The notes beneath the pieces were generated by a model. That model made no database searches, was not told the DNA's origin, and worked only from the letters and a program-made list of their open reading frames with translations. DNA of 64,000 bases from a virus: the IMG/VR virus record IMGVR_UViG_3300044726_000013, positions 1-64,000 of that record, one strand, 5' to 3'. Position numbers and translations under genes: made by a program. Below, one piece after another: positions 15,361-29,628 of this stretch; the first letter of the stretch is position 1, and every line of letters begins with the position of its first letter.

Positions 15361-15766
15361 CGGCTACCTGACCACGGCGCGCGTGCTTGAGGCGTACCAG
15401 CAATGCTGGCGGCCTGAGGGCAGCGCCCCGGCGCACAACGTTGAGGTGGCGGGCTGGCTGGTGCGCCACACCTTCAGCATCATGCGCCTGCAACGGTCAC
15501 GGGAGGCTATCATACGCATGCTGCTGAGCCTGAATGAAGGCTTCAGGGCTGACGTGGGTGAGGGCGGCAGCGTGGGTGCCATGGTGCAGCGCGGTGACGG
15601 CAGCGTGTGGACCCAAGACATGACTGACGTTGAGAAGCTGGTGGCGCTGGGCATAGCCAGCGGGCTGGCCAGCTTCTGCGCGCCGCGTGACAAGTGGGAC
15701 CGGCTGCCCGGTGGCCTGCCCTACGTCAGGGTGGAAATCACAAGATTTGGTGTGAGCGTCAATTGA
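15344..15766 (+). CDS. Unknown protein of the replication operon
   Basis: 140 residues beginning MNTSPDGYLTTARVLEAYQ. GGAGGT lies 6 bases before this ATG, which decides the start. Helical N-terminal half (WLVRHTFSIMRLQRSREAI), then GDGSVWTQDM and a C-terminal beta-like end (YVRVEITRFGVSVN). It overlaps the helicase start by TGATG. No family recognised. Confidence 0.6.
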   Translation: MNTSPDGYLTTARVLEAYQQCWRPEGSAPAHNVEVAGWLVRHTFSIMRLQRSREAIIRMLLSLNEGFRADVGEGGSVGAMVQRGDGSVWTQDMTDVEKLVALGIASGLASFCAPRDKWDRLPGGLPYVRVEITRFGVSVN

Positions 15767-17280
15767 TGGAAATTGTACTTGGCCCGCCCGGCACTGGCAA
15801 GACTACCTACCTACTCAACCAGATGGAGCAGGAACTTGGCCGGGGCCTGCGGCCTGAGCGCATAGGCTTTGTCAGCTTCACCCGGCGCGCCACGCAAGAG
15901 GCCAAGGACCGGGCCAAGGCCAAGTTTGGGTTTGTCTCACACCAGTTGCCGTGGATGCGCACGCTGCACAGCCTGTGCTTCAGGGCACTGGGTATGGACA
16001 AGGCTGAAGTGCTTGAGGGCAAGAAGCTAAAGGAATTTGGTCTGCACATAGGCGCGCCCATCACCGGGTTTGTCTCACTGGATGAAGGCACCACCTTTGG
16101 CTTTCAGACAGGTGACCGCTGCCTATTCATGGATAACCTTGCGCGGGTGCAGTGCATACCGCTGCGCCAACAATATGATGCGGACCCTGACGGCCTGACT
16201 TGGCGGGTGGTTGACCACTTCTCACGGGGGCTGGCTGAGTACAAGAGCGCGCACGGTCTAAAGGACTACACTGACATGCTTGCCCAGTTTGTTCAGCAGG
16301 GCTGGTCAACCAAACTTGACGCCCTGTTTGTGGATGAGGCGCAAGACCTGAGCGCCCTGCAATGGCAGGTGGTCAGCGTGCTGGCCAGAGGCGTTGGGCG
16401 CGTGGTGGTGGCCGGTGATGATGATCAGGCTATCTACCACTGGGCCGGGGCGGCGGTAGAGCATTTCATAGGGCTACAGGGCAGCACGGTGACCGTGCTT
16501 GACCATAGCTGGCGCGTGCCGCCTGAGGTGCAGGCCGTGGCCAACAACATCATAGGCCGCGTCACCTACCGGCGTGACAAGAAGTGGAACCCGCGTGACG
16601 GCACCGGCAAGGTGGTGCGGGTGGGTACGCTGGATGAGGCTGACATTGACGTGGGTGAAGACACGCTGATCCTTGCCCGCAACACGTGCTTTCTGCGTGA
16701 TGACGCCATGCGCCTGCTACAGGCCAGAGGCATACTGTACGAGTACAAGGGCGGCGTCAGCGTCAAGCAGTCACTGGTTGACGCCATTGTGGCGTGGGAG
16801 CGCCTGCGCCGTGGCGGTGAGGTGATGGTTGAGACTGCCGTCAAGATTTATGACGTGATGACGGCGGGCACCGGCTACCGGCGTGGCTTCAAGAAGCTGA
16901 CCGCGTGGGCGGACCATGAGCAACTGGTTACCCTGCAAGACCTTAAGGAGGCAGGCGGTCTGCTGACTGACGCCCCTTGGCATCAGGCGCTGACCCGCTT
17001 GACTGTGGATGAACGCATCTACATGCTCAAGGTCTTGCAGCACGGCCAGAAGCTGACAGAGCCCACCAAGATCAGGCTCAGCACCATTCACGGGGCCAAG
17101 GGCGCGCAGGCCGATCACGTCATTGTGTTGACTGACAGGGCGTGGCGCAGTTTCAAGGAGGGTGAACGCCTGCCTGATGATGAGGCCCGCACATGGTATG
17201 TGGCGGTGACGCGGGCCAAGCACAAACTAACGATAGTTTCTGACCTTCTCACCTACCGGAGCAAGAATTACCCCATCTAA
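15766..17280 (+). CDS. UvrD/Rep-like superfamily 1 helicase (first of two)
   Basis: 504 residues. SF1A motifs are in order: Walker A GPPGTGKT (6-13), motif Ia-type IGFVSFTRRATQEAK, Walker B VDEAQDLS near 190, motif III VVAGDDDQAIYHWAG, motif IV LDHSWRVP, motif V STIHGAKGAQAD, motif VI YVAVTRAKHKL near the C-terminus. It is shorter than UvrD (~720 aa) because the 1B/2B insertions are reduced. The start at 15766 overlaps the previous stop. The phage carries a second, distant helicase of this class at 20875. Likely role: unwinding in replication or recombination with the AEP primase. Confidence 0.9.
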   Translation: MEIVLGPPGTGKTTYLLNQMEQELGRGLRPERIGFVSFTRRATQEAKDRAKAKFGFVSHQLPWMRTLHSLCFRALGMDKAEVLEGKKLKEFGLHIGAPITGFVSLDEGTTFGFQTGDRCLFMDNLARVQCIPLRQQYDADPDGLTWRVVDHFSRGLAEYKSAHGLKDYTDMLAQFVQQGWSTKLDALFVDEAQDLSALQWQVVSVLARGVGRVVVAGDDDQAIYHWAGAAVEHFIGLQGSTVTVLDHSWRVPPEVQAVANNIIGRVTYRRDKKWNPRDGTGKVVRVGTLDEADIDVGEDTLILARNTCFLRDDAMRLLQARGILYEYKGGVSVKQSLVDAIVAWERLRRGGEVMVETAVKIYDVMTAGTGYRRGFKKLTAWADHEQLVTLQDLKEAGGLLTDAPWHQALTRLTVDERIYMLKVLQHGQKLTEPTKIRLSTIHGAKGAQADHVIVLTDRAWRSFKEGERLPDDEARTWYVAVTRAKHKLTIVSDLLTYRSKNYPI

Positions 17281-17363: not shown

Positions 17364-17777
17364 ATGGCTGTAACGCGTAAACGGATTGATGAGAATGCCA
17401 TCATCACCGTACTGGCTGAAGACAACCCCAAGCGTGAGGGCTCTGCCGCCCGCGCCCGGTTTGACCTGTACCGTGATGGCATGACCGTCAGGGAGGCCAA
17501 GGCCAATGGCCTGTGGGCCACTGACATTGCCTATGACAGCGACCCCGGCCGCAACTTCATCAGGCTGACAACGGCTGACGGTGAGGACGCCACCCCGGCA
17601 CCCAAGGCCAAGAAGGCCAAGAGCGCCAAGAAGGTGGCCAAGAAGGTGGCCAAGAAGGTGGCCAAGAAGGTGGCCAAAAAGGCCGCCAAGAAGCGGGTCA
17701 AAAAGCAACCCGAGCCTGAGGTGGCAGTTGACCCTGAGGCTGAGGGAACTGAGACTGACGCCATGGCCGCTGAGTAA
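17364..17777 (+). CDS. Recurrent NPK-DGMTV domain fused to a histone H1-like basic tail
   Basis: 137 residues. Residues ~13-67 are a copy of a domain found in six proteins of this phage (NPKREGSAARARFDLY, DGMTV, FIRL). Residues ~80-115 are an H1-like tail of repeated AKKV units encoded by a 12-bp tandem repeat, followed by an acidic end. The basic tail should bind DNA or be a charged linker. It has its own promoter and AGGAAG ribosome site and precedes a hypermodification-type gene. The start at 17364 is chosen over an upstream ATG by the ribosome site and by domain boundaries. Confidence 0.75.
   Translation: MAVTRKRIDENAIITVLAEDNPKREGSAARARFDLYRDGMTVREAKANGLWATDIAYDSDPGRNFIRLTTADGEDATPAPKAKKAKSAKKVAKKVAKKVAKKVAKKAAKKRVKKQPEPEVAVDPEAEGTETDAMAAE
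17625..17684 (+). repeat. 12-bp tandem repeat in the histone-like tail
   Basis: Four perfect copies of gccaagaaggtg (17625-17672) and a degenerate fifth (17673-17684). Each encodes A-K-K-V. Such runs expand and contract by slippage, so the tail length may differ between related phages. Confidence 0.85.
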
Positions 17778-17806: not shown

Positions 17807-18649
17807 ATGCGCGTTGAAGACATCTGGGTGTTCGCCCAAAAGCGGCACTACATCTACCTGAGACGCACAGCCGGGGCACCCCCGGAAACGTGGACTGATG
17901 ACCCCATTCTGAAGACCTACCGCTTCTGCAACATGTACCGTGAACTTGACACCGTGACCGATTGGTTGCGGGTCAACTGGCGTGAGCCGCACGCTGACCA
18001 CCCTGACCTGTGGCACGCCTTTGTGGTGGCCCGGCACATCAACAACGTGCCCATGCTGACTGCGCTGGGCGGCATCACGCTGCCGTGGGACCCCGGCCAT
18101 TTCATTGACGTGGGCATGGCCCGCAAGCAGGCTGGTGAGCGCGTCTGGTCTGCCGCCTACATCATTGGCACCCGCACGCCCGGTGACAAGTGCATCTACA
18201 TTGCCGATAACGTGCTGACGCCCATGTGGCGCAAGCGTGACAAGATCAGGCCGCAACAGGGTGACACGCTGACCAGTTGGCACATGCAGCTTGGCCTATG
18301 GTTCGGCATGGCCAGCTTCATGGCGGCGCAGGTGATTGCGGATATCAAGCACGCCACCCCGGCGCTGAAGAACGCTGGTGACTGGCACACCTTCTGCGCC
18401 AGCGGGCCGGGCAGCCGCCGTGGGCTCAACCGCATCTTTGAGCGTGACAAGAATGCGCCTTGGCGTGAAGATGACTTCAGGCTGAAGCTGCTGAGCCTGA
18501 GGCAGGAACTGGCACCCATGTTTGCCGCCAGCGGCTGGGCTATACCTGACGCGCAAGACGTGCAGAACATGCTGTGTGAGTTTGACAAGTACGAGCGCAC
18601 CCGGCTGGGTGAGGGCAAACCCAAGCAACTGTTCAGAGGTGGATCATGA
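17807..18649 (+). CDS. Putative DNA base hypermodification protein (HMUDK-helical type)
   Basis: 280 residues. The N-terminal pattern IWVFAQKRHYIYLRRTAG, then WTDDPILKTYRFCNMYRELD, matches a helical family I recall from computationally defined thymine hypermodification systems (5-hmdU DNA kinase helical domain and aGPT-pyrophosphorylase-like clades). Further motifs are DHPDLWHAFVVARHIN, WHTFCASGPGSRRGLN and DVQNMLCEFDKYER. Its partners in such systems, a 5-hmdU kinase and a thymidylate synthase homologue, are encoded 10 kb downstream. It would act on 5-hydroxymethyl-dU or its phosphate in DNA. The exact reaction is unknown. It lies directly after the histone-like gene, 29 bases away. Confidence 0.75.
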   Translation: MRVEDIWVFAQKRHYIYLRRTAGAPPETWTDDPILKTYRFCNMYRELDTVTDWLRVNWREPHADHPDLWHAFVVARHINNVPMLTALGGITLPWDPGHFIDVGMARKQAGERVWSAAYIIGTRTPGDKCIYIADNVLTPMWRKRDKIRPQQGDTLTSWHMQLGLWFGMASFMAAQVIADIKHATPALKNAGDWHTFCASGPGSRRGLNRIFERDKNAPWREDDFRLKLLSLRQELAPMFAASGWAIPDAQDVQNMLCEFDKYERTRLGEGKPKQLFRGGS

Positions 18650-24373: not shown

Positions 24374-25456
24374 ATGAGGAAAATACGCGTGGCCATTGTG
24401 GGCGTGGGCAATTGCGCCAGCGCCCTGATCCAAGGGCTGGCTTACTACGGCCAGACATCTGACAACTACCCCAAGCCCGGCATGATCACACCCTTGCTGG
24501 GCGGCTACGGCCCGGCTGACATTGAGGTGGTCACCGCCTTTGATGTGGTAGACACCAAGGTGGGGTTGCCCATCAATCAGGCCATCTGGGCGCAACCCAA
24601 CAACACCACGGCAATAGTGGATAGCGTGCCTGAGTGCGGCAAGGTCTACCGTGGCCCCACGCTTGACGGTCTGGGCAAGTACCTGCGTGAGGTGGTGGGT
24701 GAAAGCACAGTAGAGCCGATTGACGTTGAAGACACGCTGGCGCTGCTGAATGTGGATGTTCTGGTCAGCTACCTGCCGGTGGGCTCTGATCTGGCGGCCC
24801 AGCACTATGCCGGGGCGGCGCTGCGCGCCAACACAGCATTCGTGAACTGCATGCCTGCGTTCATTGCCTCTGACCCTGAATGGGCCGCTGCCTTCAAGCG
24901 GGCGGGGGTGCCCATCATTGGGGATGACATCAAGTCACAGGTGGGGGCCACCATTGTGCACCGCACGCTGGTGCAGTTGCTGCGTGAGCGCGGCTATGTG
25001 CTGAGGCGCACCAGCCAGTTGAATGTGGGCGGCAATTCTGACTTCCTCAACATGCTTGAGCGCAGCCGCCTGACCAGCAAGAAGATCAGCAAGACGCGGG
25101 CCGTCACCAGCATCATGGGCGTGGAACTGCCTGCTGAAGACGTGCACATTGGCCCGTCTGACTATGTGCCGTGGCTGGGTGACACCAAGGTGGCGCACAT
25201 CAGGCTTGAGGCTGAGGGCTTTGGTGGCGCACCGTTGACCATGGACCTGAAGCTTGAGGTGGTTGACAGCCCCAACAGCGCGGGCGTGGTGATGGACGCC
25301 ATACGCTGCGCCGCCGTGGCGCAGGACCGTGGGCAGGGCGGGCCGGTGGCGGCAGCCTGCGCTTGGTACATGAAAAGCCCGCCCGAACAGTGGGATGATA
25401 GCGTGGCCAGTGATCTGCTTGATGAATGGCTGAGAGGGGATGATCTGACATGGTGA
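24374..25456 (+). CDS. myo-Inositol-1-phosphate synthase (MIPS), full length
   Basis: A 360-residue NAD-dependent isomerase that turns glucose 6-phosphate into 1L-myo-inositol 1-phosphate. It looks complete and close to the actinobacterial-type enzyme: NAD-binding VAIVGVGNCASAL (6-18), GPTLDGLGKY, LVSYLPVGSD, the active-site segment GDDIKSQVGAT (about 184-193), LNVGGNSDFLNM, SKKISKTRAV with its lysines, DVHIGPSDYVPWL, and the C-terminal DSPNSAGVV and MKSPPEQ. All motifs I would expect for catalysis are present. The start is fixed by GAGGG before 24374. It overlaps the transferase-like gene by 7 bases and opens the block with phosphatase, 5-hmdU kinase and thymidylate synthase homologue. This suggests an inositol-based DNA modification. 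Alternative: it alters host inositol metabolism. Confidence 0.9.
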   Translation: MRKIRVAIVGVGNCASALIQGLAYYGQTSDNYPKPGMITPLLGGYGPADIEVVTAFDVVDTKVGLPINQAIWAQPNNTTAIVDSVPECGKVYRGPTLDGLGKYLREVVGESTVEPIDVEDTLALLNVDVLVSYLPVGSDLAAQHYAGAALRANTAFVNCMPAFIASDPEWAAAFKRAGVPIIGDDIKSQVGATIVHRTLVQLLRERGYVLRRTSQLNVGGNSDFLNMLERSRLTSKKISKTRAVTSIMGVELPAEDVHIGPSDYVPWLGDTKVAHIRLEAEGFGGAPLTMDLKLEVVDSPNSAGVVMDAIRCAAVAQDRGQGGPVAAACAWYMKSPPEQWDDSVASDLLDEWLRGDDLTW

Positions 25457-26496
25457 GAGAATTTTCAACTGAGCAACACCGCAAGCACTTTGCTGAGTTC
25501 TGTAGGTGGGAGTTGGCCAGCGGTGGCCCAGACCCGCAACTGGCCATGGTGGCTTATATGGCCCGCCAGCAAGAGGTGAATGAAGAGGAGCAGTTGTGGC
25601 GGGCCTTCTGCTACATTGGCCCCTACAACGTGCCCTACGGTGAAGTGCTGTGGCGGCACTGGTCATACCGCGATCTGGCTGATGACGAGAAGGGCATCAT
25701 AAAGGCGGGCCTGCGCAACTGGCTTGATGCCGCTTTCAACGCTGACAAGATCACCACCCGCATTGAGCGGCGCACGGTGCGGCGGGCCGATTGGCTGCAT
25801 GAGTACCTGTTGGGTGCCCGGCGCTTCATCTGGCATGACTGGCCTGAGTTGGTGGATGAGTGCCTGAGCCTTCACCCGCACCAAGCCTATGAGGTGGCAT
25901 GGCAGAAGGTCACGGCGCTGCCGCGCATAGGCCGCTACGCGGCAATCAAGCTGATTGAGTACCTGAGGCGCTATCAGGGGCTGATGGTCCTCACGCCCGA
26001 TATACGGCCCAAAGACGCATGGTCACCGCGCCATACGCTGGGCTACATCTGGCCAGACCGCAACCTTGGCAACCGTGACAACAGCCCTGAGGCGCTGACG
26101 GTGGCCAGCCAAGCCTGCATTGACGCGCTGACGCTGCTGAAGCATGACTACGATGTCACCATAGACATGTTTCAGCTTCAGGTGCTGCTGTGTGAGTACC
26201 GTGAAAGCTGGGAAAAGGGCAAGCAATACCCCGGCCGCTCACTAGATAGCGAACTGGGCTACGCCCGCAAGGCTGAACTTGACTGGGCCTACAACAGCGG
26301 CATCTGGCGCGCCCGGCGTGACCTGTTCCCGCTACAGCATCTGGGTGAGCATCAGGGCTGGGAGGGGCCGCGCAAGCCGGTGGCCGGGTGCCTGCGTGAC
26401 CACGGCTACACGTGGACTGACCTGAAGTATGACTTCATCAAAACCACTGATATGGATGAGCCTGTGATGTGGAGAGGGTCTGATGGCAGCCGGTGA
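25450..26496 (+). CDS. Putative DNA side-chain transferase of the thymine hypermodification type
   Basis: 348 residues. A helical N-terminal part (EEEQLWRAFCYIGPYNVPYG) and a glycosylase-like helix-hairpin-helix segment VTALPRIGRYAAIKLIEYLR (about 156-175) precede a C-terminal region with IRPKDAWSPRHTLGYIWPD and DMFQLQVLLCEYRESW. This fits, as I recall, the amino acid:DNA transferase / aGPT-pyrophosphorylase group predicted by Iyer, Aravind and colleagues, in which activated 5-hydroxymethyl-dU in DNA accepts an amine or amino acid. Here the gene overlaps that of inositol-phosphate synthase, so the donor may be an inositol derivative. Catalytic residues cannot be assigned by eye. Confidence 0.7.
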   Translation: MVREFSTEQHRKHFAEFCRWELASGGPDPQLAMVAYMARQQEVNEEEQLWRAFCYIGPYNVPYGEVLWRHWSYRDLADDEKGIIKAGLRNWLDAAFNADKITTRIERRTVRRADWLHEYLLGARRFIWHDWPELVDECLSLHPHQAYEVAWQKVTALPRIGRYAAIKLIEYLRRYQGLMVLTPDIRPKDAWSPRHTLGYIWPDRNLGNRDNSPEALTVASQACIDALTLLKHDYDVTIDMFQLQVLLCEYRESWEKGKQYPGRSLDSELGYARKAELDWAYNSGIWRARRDLFPLQHLGEHQGWEGPRKPVAGCLRDHGYTWTDLKYDFIKTTDMDEPVMWRGSDGSR

Positions 26497-27111: not shown

Positions 27112-27521
27112 GCATTCCTGAAAAGCTACGTCAGGCATATCATAACGATCTGACTGACGTGCCCTTGCTGCTTGAGGCGGCTGATGAAATTGACAAGTGG
27201 GACCGGCGTTGGTGCGTGGCTGTTAAGACGATAGCTGAGCGTGATGAAACCATCGAGCGGCTGACGGCAGAGCGCAACAAGCTGGAAGACATGTGGCGTG
27301 AGCGCCCCACCGGCACCCGCAACCAGCGTGAGCGCCAGCTTACCAAGCGGTTGGAAGACGCTGAGGCATTAGCTTTCACGCTGGCAACGCAGGTCAGGGC
27401 GGCTGAGGCCGTACTGGTGACCATTGAGAGCCGGGCCAGCGGCTACACCCATGGGGATGAACGGGTTGAAGCCACGTTCAGGGGCATAGCGGAACTTGCC
27501 CGTAAGAAGGCGGCGTCATGA
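27108..27521 (+). CDS. Coiled-coil protein within the modification operon
   Basis: 137 residues, helical throughout with a central charged coil (AERDETIERLTAERNKLEDM). Helical start (IPEKLRQAYHNDLTD) and LLLEAADEIDKWDRR, a pattern seen in small phage proteins of the ead/Ea22 kind. Coupled by ATGA on both sides. No enzymatic motif; role unknown. Confidence 0.6.
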   Translation: MSIPEKLRQAYHNDLTDVPLLLEAADEIDKWDRRWCVAVKTIAERDETIERLTAERNKLEDMWRERPTGTRNQRERQLTKRLEDAEALAFTLATQVRAAEAVLVTIESRASGYTHGDERVEATFRGIAELARKKAAS

Positions 27522-28081
27522 GCATTGTTCTGATCAGGGGCACGGGCGGCAGCGGCAAGACCTACATTGCCGAGCAGGTGATCAAGGCGCTGGGCGGCCT
27601 GAGCGCGGCCACCACGTTCACCATGGGGCCCAAAGACAAGACGGCGGGCTACATCTGGCGGGCTCCCCCGGTTACCATCATGGGGCGCTACGGCAACGCC
27701 TGCGGCGGCTGTGACACCATTGGCGGCTGGCCGGGGGGTCCAGATGATATCTGCAAGCGCATTGCCGTTGAGGCGTCACTGGGCCAGAGCGTGCTGTGGG
27801 AGGGCATTGCCGTCAGCAGCTACGGCCAGAAGCGGTTGCTGCTGATGCCGGGCCTGACGGTCATTCAGCTTGACACTTCACTTGAGGAATGCGTTAAGTC
27901 AATCTATGCGCGGCGCGCGGCCAAGGGCAATGCAAAGCCGCTTGACCTGTACCACACCGAGCGTAAGCATAAGGCGCTGTTTACGACCACGCGCAGCAAC
28001 GCGGCGGCGGGCATTGCCACTGAGACGCACAGCCGTGAAACTGCATTGCCGCGCGTCATGGAATTACTTGGTTTAGTTTAG
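27518..28081 (+). CDS. 5-Hydroxymethyl-dUMP DNA kinase (P-loop)
   Basis: 187 residues. Walker A GTGGSGKT (8-15) and the segment GRYGNACGGCD (56-66), followed by TIGGWPGGPDDI and VLWEGIAVSSYG, match the phage 5-hmdU DNA kinases characterised by Weigele and co-workers. These phosphorylate hydroxymethyl-deoxyuridine within DNA so that a side chain can later replace the phosphate. Here it stands alone, without the fused helical domain, which may be supplied by the protein at 17807. It lies just upstream of the thymidylate synthase homologue. This is the best single marker that the phage DNA carries modified thymine. Confidence 0.85.
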   Translation: MSIVLIRGTGGSGKTYIAEQVIKALGGLSAATTFTMGPKDKTAGYIWRAPPVTIMGRYGNACGGCDTIGGWPGGPDDICKRIAVEASLGQSVLWEGIAVSSYGQKRLLLMPGLTVIQLDTSLEECVKSIYARRAAKGNAKPLDLYHTERKHKALFTTTRSNAAAGIATETHSRETALPRVMELLGLV

Positions 28082-28276: not shown

Positions 28277-29332
28277 ATGTTTACTATTCACGTCAGCAAC
28301 GTCAACTACGCATGGCTTGACGCCATCAAGCTTATTCAGCAGTACGGCGTGCCAGAAGACAGCCGCGCGGGGCGCGTCAGCGTGATGCCCGGCCCGGTGA
28401 CCACCATCTATAACCAGCCGCGCCAGAGGGTGCTGTTTGATGCTGTGCGTGACGCCAACCCGGTGTTTCACCTGCATGAGGCGCTGTGGATGCTGGCGGG
28501 GCGCAATGACGCTACGGGGCTAGATATATTCGTCTCAGATTTCAGCGCCCGGTTTGCTGAAGAGGATGGCCGCCAGCACGGGGCCTATGGCTACCGCTGG
28601 CGCAACCACTTCACCAACGTGCGTGACTTTGCGGGCGTTGACATGGATCAGCTTGACGTGGTGGTTGACATGCTGGCGCGTGACCCCGGCACACGGCAGG
28701 CGGTCATTGCAATGTGGGACGCTGAGGTTGACCTTGACCAGCCGCGCCTGAAGGATAAGCCCTGCAACACCCACATCTACCTGCGCCTGCGCATCACGCC
28801 ACGCACCGCTGGGGCTAGTGCCAGTGGGCTGATGGTGCAGGCTGACCTGCGTGAACTTGACATGGCCGTGATGTGCCGCAGCAATGACATCGTGTGGGGT
28901 TGCTACGGTGCCAACGCCGTGCACTTCAGCATCTTGCAGGAGTATCTGGCAGCGCGGATGGGCGTAGAGATGGGGCGGCTGACGCAGTTCAGCTTCAACT
29001 GGCACATGTACTCTGCCACCAAGCATCTGGCTGACATCGTGGGGGCTGAGGCGGGCATCATGGGCGGCTACCCCGGCACCGTGCCGCTGGTGACAGACCC
29101 CCGCAGCTTTGACCGTGAGGTGCGCGCCTATGTGCAAGACCCCAGCCTTGCCACGCTGGGTGAATTTGATAACGAGTTTCTGACCCGCACGGCATGGCCC
29201 ATGTACATGGCCAACATTGAGCGCAAGGCGGGCAACACGGCCACGTCTGCCCTGACGTGGGCAGAAAGCATTCAGGCACCAGATTGGCGCAAGGCCACCA
29301 TGGCGTGGCTAGAAAGGAAGATAAAGAAATGA
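28277..29332 (+). CDS. Thymidylate synthase homologue, probable dUMP hydroxymethyltransferase
   Basis: 351 residues of the ThyA fold. Catalytic Cys lies in DKPCNTH (about residue 163); the substrate loop CRSNDIVWGCYGANAVHF keeps the Asn (GAN) that in ThyA selects uracil, where dCMP hydroxymethylases have Asp. PVTTIYNQPRQRVLF, FHLHEALWMLAG and HGAYGYRWRNHF are shared with phage enzymes near hypermodification genes. With a 5-hmdU kinase next door, the likely product is 5-hydroxymethyl-dUMP rather than dTMP. The usual PCH after the nucleophile is PCN here. Preceded by a strong hairpin and GAGGGGAG. Plain thymidylate synthase remains possible. Confidence 0.8.
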   Translation: MFTIHVSNVNYAWLDAIKLIQQYGVPEDSRAGRVSVMPGPVTTIYNQPRQRVLFDAVRDANPVFHLHEALWMLAGRNDATGLDIFVSDFSARFAEEDGRQHGAYGYRWRNHFTNVRDFAGVDMDQLDVVVDMLARDPGTRQAVIAMWDAEVDLDQPRLKDKPCNTHIYLRLRITPRTAGASASGLMVQADLRELDMAVMCRSNDIVWGCYGANAVHFSILQEYLAARMGVEMGRLTQFSFNWHMYSATKHLADIVGAEAGIMGGYPGTVPLVTDPRSFDREVRAYVQDPSLATLGEFDNEFLTRTAWPMYMANIERKAGNTATSALTWAESIQAPDWRKATMAWLERKIKK

Positions 29333-29628
29333 GCATCTTCAGGACGGTCAGAAAGATCAAGGACTGTGACACCTGCAACGGCAGCGGCCGGGTACTTACC
29401 GACCCCGCCAAGGGCACTGAGGGGCCGTGTGATACCTGTGGCGGCGAGGGCCGGGTAGAGGTGCTGGTCAGGGCCAACCGGGCGGCGGTGCATCAGGCTG
29501 AGGTGGCTACCAAGCAGATGAACCCCGGCCCGGCGCGCAAGGCCGCCAAAGCCCGGCTTGCCGGTGTTGAGAAGGATGGTACTGTCAGTTCTGATGACAG
29601 TAGAGGGTTTGTGAATGAAGACGAGTGA
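29329..29628 (+). CDS. Small DnaJ-type zinc finger protein
   Basis: 99 residues with two CxxCxGxG knuckles (CDTCNGSGRV near 13 and CDTCGGEGRV near 34), the zinc-binding repeat of DnaJ-like proteins. A charged tail follows. ATGA overlap with the thymidylate synthase homologue; AAGGAAG is the ribosome site. It could be a chaperone or nucleic-acid binding accessory of the modification enzymes; no J domain is present. Confidence 0.65.
   Translation: MSIFRTVRKIKDCDTCNGSGRVLTDPAKGTEGPCDTCGGEGRVEVLVRANRAAVHQAEVATKQMNPGPARKAAKARLAGVEKDGTVSSDDSRGFVNEDE

Follow-up and report, generated by a model that had tools for sequence, protein, structure and literature searches.

Several phage systems related to the locus studied here have been described. 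In the SP10-type 5-hmdU DNA kinase of Bacillus phages, a kinase domain (HMUDK_HMUD1) and a helical domain (HMUDK_hel, called hel in the following) are found in one protein. An example is Goe26_01450 of Bacillus phage Goe26, a natural fusion of 636 aa with the PF18748 kinase at residues 35-193 (E 3.5e-24) and PF18723 at residues 312-597 (E 4e-45), and with a TS-family gene just downstream. The BFVD also lists an SP10 '5-hmdU DNA kinase' of 637 aa that matches the hel fold. In phages of the M6/YuA type, in which thymidine is hypermodified to 5-NedU, kinase and hel are separate genes (YuA gp13/gp14, SN1_021/SN1_020), and TS-family and ADDT genes are present as well. The kinase gene directly adjoins the hel gene in YuA, M6, Sonora, Ab18, Rhizobium I72, Simon and Sinatra, and the annotation of SN1 places aGPT-Pplase1, an older name for hel genes that is still used in records, next to a 'nucleotide kinase' (PMC9476957). 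In Delftia phage phiW-14 (gp72) and Acinetobacter phage nACB2, finally, a stand-alone hel lies tens of kb from the kinase (63.8 kb vs 31.4 kb and 8 kb vs 105 kb, respectively).

We have analysed a window of 64,000 bases, corresponding to bases 1-64000 of a virus record totalling 79,594 bases, which contains both a hel gene and a kinase gene. It has the same two domain families as the SP10-type enzyme and likewise a TS-family gene near them, but here the two domains are encoded by two genes 8.9 kb apart, and the kinase is too divergent to match PF18748. With the M6/YuA-type phages it shares the separate kinase and hel as well as the TS-family gene and, by a weak match, an ADDT-like gene; in those phages, however, kinase and hel adjoin, their hel is 38-39% identical to that of the window, and the window adds an inositol-phosphate-synthase-like (MIPS-like) gene. 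The stand-alone hel far from the kinase is a likeness to phiW-14 and nACB2, which differ from the window phage in being large myoviruses, with a hel identity of 29-33%. Both the two-gene split and the wide separation are thus already known arrangements.

The unexpected and most interesting result is instead that the hel family swaps partners, which follows from the mutual exclusivity of kinase and TAGT genes described below. The reading that we favour, with a probability of roughly 0.7, is that the hel protein of the window handles the DNA, without catalysis of its own, as one subunit of a two-gene 5-hmdU DNA kinase, and that across phages the family exchanges kinase and TAGT partners as an adaptor for 5-hmdU DNA.

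The helical protein and its predicted fold

The hel gene (17807..18649, +) is an open reading frame of 280 aa, whose sequence includes ETWTDDPILKTYRFCNMYRELD. The protein matches the Pfam family HMUDK_hel (PF18723) with E 5.4e-36 and 124.8 bits (cut-off 25) over profile positions 4-278 of 281, and also phrog_2396 (E 1e-49). The original prediction had assigned it to the helical domain linked to 5-hmdU kinases, and this agrees with the full-length match over the cut-off. The gene itself is accordingly a member of a known family. The same search across 14 control genomes gave no match to the family, a nucleotide search of the window region against phage records matched nothing, and a sequence search of hel, the kinase and the ADDT-like protein against solved structures gave no relevant match.

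The dN/dS of hel is ~0.16 and ~0.20 in comparisons with relatives that are 92% and 79% identical, respectively, which indicates a constrained protein gene. An alignment of 107 sequences has twelve residues that are invariant in the family, namely R45, D48, R76, N79, F171, D179, G200, G202, G206, C257, E258 and K261, and all of them are kept in the window protein. D192 is near-invariant, being present in 106 of the 107 sequences.

The AlphaFold2 model of the protein is all helical, with a pLDDT of 96.4. Its best solved match is PUGT of phage PaMx11, a 5-PmdU glycinyltransferase of the ADDT kind (PDB 8z2n, 8z2m; Foldseek E 0.02, probability 0.97), with a VIA Z of 10.9 over 228 residues, followed by HhH DNA glycosylases of the OGG1/EndoIII/AlkA type with Z 8-10.6, values near 10 being moderate for an all-helical protein; the queuosine salvage enzyme DUF2419 is also matched. 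In the pathway PUGT comes in at the next step, but it is a catalytic transferase from a different Pfam family, and the sequence identity to hel is 11%.

With the HhH-GPD glycosylases (OGG1, EndoIII, AlkA), hel would, to judge from these moderate scores, have the predicted fold in common, and it also has a GxGxF hairpin and a near-invariant Asp downstream of it. The hel stretch GxGxF-M-A resembles the HhH hairpin, F171 is found in 107 of 107 sequences, and D192 follows 21 residues later. By mapping of this pattern rather than by superposition, we infer that F171 sits at the position of the catalytic Lys of the bifunctional glycosylases, and that D192 resembles the GPD aspartate. We know of no glycosylase activity for hel. 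The predicted glycosylase-like fold with a Phe at the presumed Lys position suggests that hel is a base-recognising or base-flipping subunit, which would bind or present the base without excising it.

Divergent HMUDK_hel relatives (L126-L182, 21-30% identity) were also observed in bacterial and archaeal contigs, from Alphaproteobacteria, Patescibacteria, DPANN archaea and haloarchaea. With the exception of L127, they have no match to the kinase profile nearby, and several of the alphaproteobacterial ones have a thymidylate-kinase-like gene ~4.3 kb downstream.

The separate kinase and the modification block

We now consider the kinase gene (27518..28081, +). It encodes a stand-alone P-loop kinase of 187 aa with the Walker A motif RGTGGSGKT and without a helical domain, and it would provide the catalysis in the 5-hmdU DNA kinase. 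It matches phrog_800 (E 1e-8), and its relatives adjoin HMUDK_hel genes. In the Pfam search no family was over the cut-off, and PF18748 (HMUDK_HMUD1) gave no match at E <= 1. The assignment to the 5-hmdU kinase family was therefore made through a profile built in this analysis and not through the curated PF18748. This profile finds the window kinase, which is its own query row, with E 7.6e-52, and, with the window kinase included, it also picks up the kinase portion of the Goe26_01450 fusion with E 2.8e-24. Many records of the 5-hmdU kinase family (phrog_800, YuA gp13, Ab18 ORF12) bear the annotation 'terminase small subunit', apparently in error.

The gap between hel and kinase, which are on the same strand, is 8.87 kb, so that the earlier description of a kinase lacking the helical domain some 9 kb away is borne out. 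Similar separations are found in relatives with hel identities of 79% (L006, gap 8.7 kb), 66% (L188, 9.2 kb) and 68% (L024, 7.0 kb), and these three form one clade with the window in the hel tree. Among 95 loci with both genes, which were not de-duplicated, the kinase lies within 700 nt of hel in 75 and within 100 nt in 51. It is always on the same strand as hel, and upstream of it in 69 of the 75 close pairs. For kinase records without a hel close by, hel is present elsewhere in 4/4 of those of at least 34.5 kb and absent in one of 33.8 kb, the rest being short fragments. Most relatives have the two halves as separate genes, and the two-gene split is thus the norm.

On the basis of the natural fusion, the adjacency and the co-occurrence, it is well supported that the products of 17807 and 27518 together make up one functional unit, and they would presumably form a physical complex. 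The split enzyme of the original prediction stands in this respect but is incomplete, as hel is also found with partners other than kinases. It should be noted that the 5hmdU DNA kinase of phage M6 has been reported as purified and active, with the presence of the helical protein not stated (PMC6449724), which means that the kinase may work alone. A read-through chimera from L070 (hel, two in-frame TAA stops taken as Gln, and kinase) was also modelled; its kinase half has a pLDDT <50, probably through misalignment of the kinase rows onto hel. Two kinase genes of the same family together with one hel were observed in nine loci (L200, L194, L246, L241, L248, L206, L225, L254 and L050), usually in tandem and ~4 kb apart in L050; a division of labour is possible in these cases.

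The kinase is part of a block that starts with the inositol-phosphate-synthase-like gene (24374..25456, +; PF01658 E 5e-35, TIGR03450 E 2.5e-134, the latter below the equivalog cut-off). Beside it lies a gene for a divergent amino acid:DNA transferase-like protein (ADDT, formerly aGPT-Pplase2; 25450..26496, +), the probable next step of the pathway. Its match to PF18724 is weak, with E 0.018 and below the cut-off in the protein scan and E 6e-4 in the genome search, while among its relatives the one in G001 is over the cut-off and that in G033 just below. The kinase follows at 27518, and then a TS-family enzyme, a probable dUMP hydroxymethylase for 5-hmdU supply (28277..29332, +; PF00303 E 4.5e-18, phrog_5131 1.5e-81), which has the uridylate-type Asn. 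An HD-domain gene at 29615 completes the block. Kinase and ADDT occur together in the same 11 hel records, which are those with a strong kinase match. Four hel records (the window, G001, G033 and G034), each with a kinase, contain an inositol-1-phosphate-synthase-like gene, invariably at ~1-1.5 kb from the ADDT-like one, and in L236 a relative of this gene starts 21 nt after hel. The gene may feed an inositol-type group, an unusual precursor, into the modification.

The following sequence of events can then be proposed. The TS-family enzyme at 28277, given its family and its Asn residue, would make hmdUMP, which would be built into the phage DNA. There, as its fold and its partner pattern suggest, hel would recognise 5-hmdU by means of the HhH-glycosylase-type fold and probably flip the base. 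The P-loop kinase at 27518, judging from its family, would then add a phosphate to the hydroxymethyl group. This phosphate would, if the weak match of the protein encoded at 25450 is a guide, probably be replaced with the next group by that ADDT-like protein.

Kinase or TAGT glycosyltransferase as partner

To place hel in a wider context, 40 hel-bearing phage records were searched with four families (kinase, ADDT, TAGT and TS). The kinase is present in 12/40, a count that includes Sinatra (E 8e-6) and leaves out G008 and G017, which have weak partial profile matches (E 0.003-0.004). A TAGT-type glycosyltransferase (PF20691), a family known from the di-glucosylation of 5-hmC in T6 and absent from the window phage, is found in 24/40. 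No record has both and four have neither; the Fisher test for this exclusivity gives 3e-7, where it has to be kept in mind that the records are related and hence not independent. In 43 hel loci the TAGT cluster lies at a median of 27 nt from hel, often directly after it as in the marine clade, and never alongside a kinase. The idea that the kinase-less phages are mere fragments was rejected, as several are >50 kb and TAGT is present in exactly those records.

The original prediction, which tied the helical domain to the kinase, is thus too narrow, because the kinase-less phages pair hel with a TAGT glycosyltransferase. In a hel tree of 138 labelled proteins (46 TAGT, 92 kinase), a quick tree with many weak forks, at least 10 partner changes are needed. 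The 12 invariant hel residues are identical in the two groups, and a TS-family gene is present in 36/40 hel records, with both kinds of partner.

The uridylate-type Asn of a TS-family enzyme marks a uridylate substrate. It is kept in 113/113 of the TS-family neighbours, which makes 5-hmdU, and not 5-hmC, the more probable common substrate in kinase and TAGT phages, and for the same reason the option that the TAGT phages make 5-hmC is disfavoured. The hel-paired TAGTs sit with uridylate-type TS-family enzymes and not in the T-even context (PMC13216743).

With a kinase as its partner in some phages and a TAGT in others, hel would be an interchangeable adaptor for 5-hmdU DNA; in the simplest interpretation, recognition of 5-hmdU DNA resides in hel and the chemistry in its partner. 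We lean, by a small margin, towards a still broader formulation, according to which hel is a general 5-hmdU-DNA recognition subunit rather than a kinase domain, with the P-loop kinase, TAGT and perhaps a sulfotransferase-like protein as partners, and in which the hel-TS-TAGT sets are 5-hmdU-glycosylating systems; glycosylation of 5-hmdU would then take place in the TAGT phages. In the kinase-less L031, a weak sulfotransferase match (PF13469 E 3e-4, below the cut-off) comes right after hel. Three further contigs of 120-463 kb (L033, L034 and L036) have hel without a match to kinase, TAGT or TS family, and in L033 a weak DruA match follows hel.

Another option considered was that hel is itself an enzyme, either along the lines of the aGPT-Pplase1 name that records still use for its relatives or glycosylase-like, with 5-hmdU or a modified form of it as substrate, working alongside the kinase or glycosyltransferase and not as a subunit of it. 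The polar residues R45, D48, R76, N79, D179, C257, E258 and K261, invariant in the 107 sequences, and the near-invariant D192 would fit with this, as would the catalytic nature of its closest fold relative, PUGT. However, these residues are the same with either partner in spite of the different chemistry, an invariant Phe apparently takes the place of the glycosylase Lys, and hel is naturally fused with the kinase, and we therefore regard this option as unlikely.

Neighbouring genes and what the pairing would mean

Upstream of hel there is a UvrD/Rep-type helicase gene (15766..17280, +; PF00580 E 1e-29), and the order helicase-then-hel is shared by close relatives and by a clade of marine phages (L005, L006, L025, L026, L069, L068 and L097). 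It could be envisaged that hel mainly serves this helicase or the replication machinery, by marking or reading 5-hmdU DNA, with the kinase 9 kb away acting alone. The retention of hel in kinase-less phages, and the conserved order in the window clade and the large marine clade, are consistent with such a role. The marine clade, however, has TAGT directly after hel, so that a modifying partner is not missing there, and in most of the relatives with a kinase a helicase of this kind is absent beside hel. This scenario appears less likely still than that of hel as an enzyme. That hel, having left the kinase neighbourhood, is a dispensable relic no longer needed for modification in this phage is highly improbable in view of its dN/dS, the retention of every family-invariant residue, and the conservation of the separated layout in relatives at 66-79% identity.

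Between the helicase and hel lies the gene for a small protein of 137 aa (17364..17777, +), which consists of an N-terminal phage domain of ~65 aa and a Lys/Ala-rich tail that looks histone-H1-like. The original prediction had this neighbour presenting or protecting DNA during modification. The histone role is rejected, as no support for it was found: the Pfam search gave no family at E <= 1, and hence no histone or nucleoid-protein match, the Lys-rich tail is absent in the relatives L025 and L026, and the dN/dS is ~0.62. The ~65-aa domain, moreover, is found seven times in the window (17364, 34532-, 43415-, 44006-, 60124, and twice in the ORF from 62936), fused to differing partners, namely the Lys-rich tail, DUF2786/DUF7168 and NUDIX. 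It has the pattern NPKxxGSxAxxRFxxYxDGMTVxxxxxAGxTxEDLxWDxxxGFI, carries no Pfam name, and is present in 26 of the loci examined. Rather than being a part of the modification enzyme, the protein belongs more probably to a family of small phage domains, outside the modification pathway.

Returning to hel as an adaptor for 5-hmdU DNA, this reading, if true, would have a number of consequences. The Pfam name HMUDK_hel would be misleading, and the phages that combine hel, TAGT and a uridylate-type TS-family enzyme, of which there are dozens, would become candidates for glycosylated 5-hydroxymethyluracil DNA. TAGT without a known T-even glucosyltransferase or a known target has been reported in 288 of 753 phage genomes (PMC13216743), and the hel-TS-TAGT sets may supply the substrate for a share of these 'solitary' phage TAGTs. 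The role of the helical protein would also be directly testable, through the question of whether it confers 5-hmdU specificity on any enzyme paired with it. In addition, hel would be a portable module that directs enzymes to a chosen DNA base.
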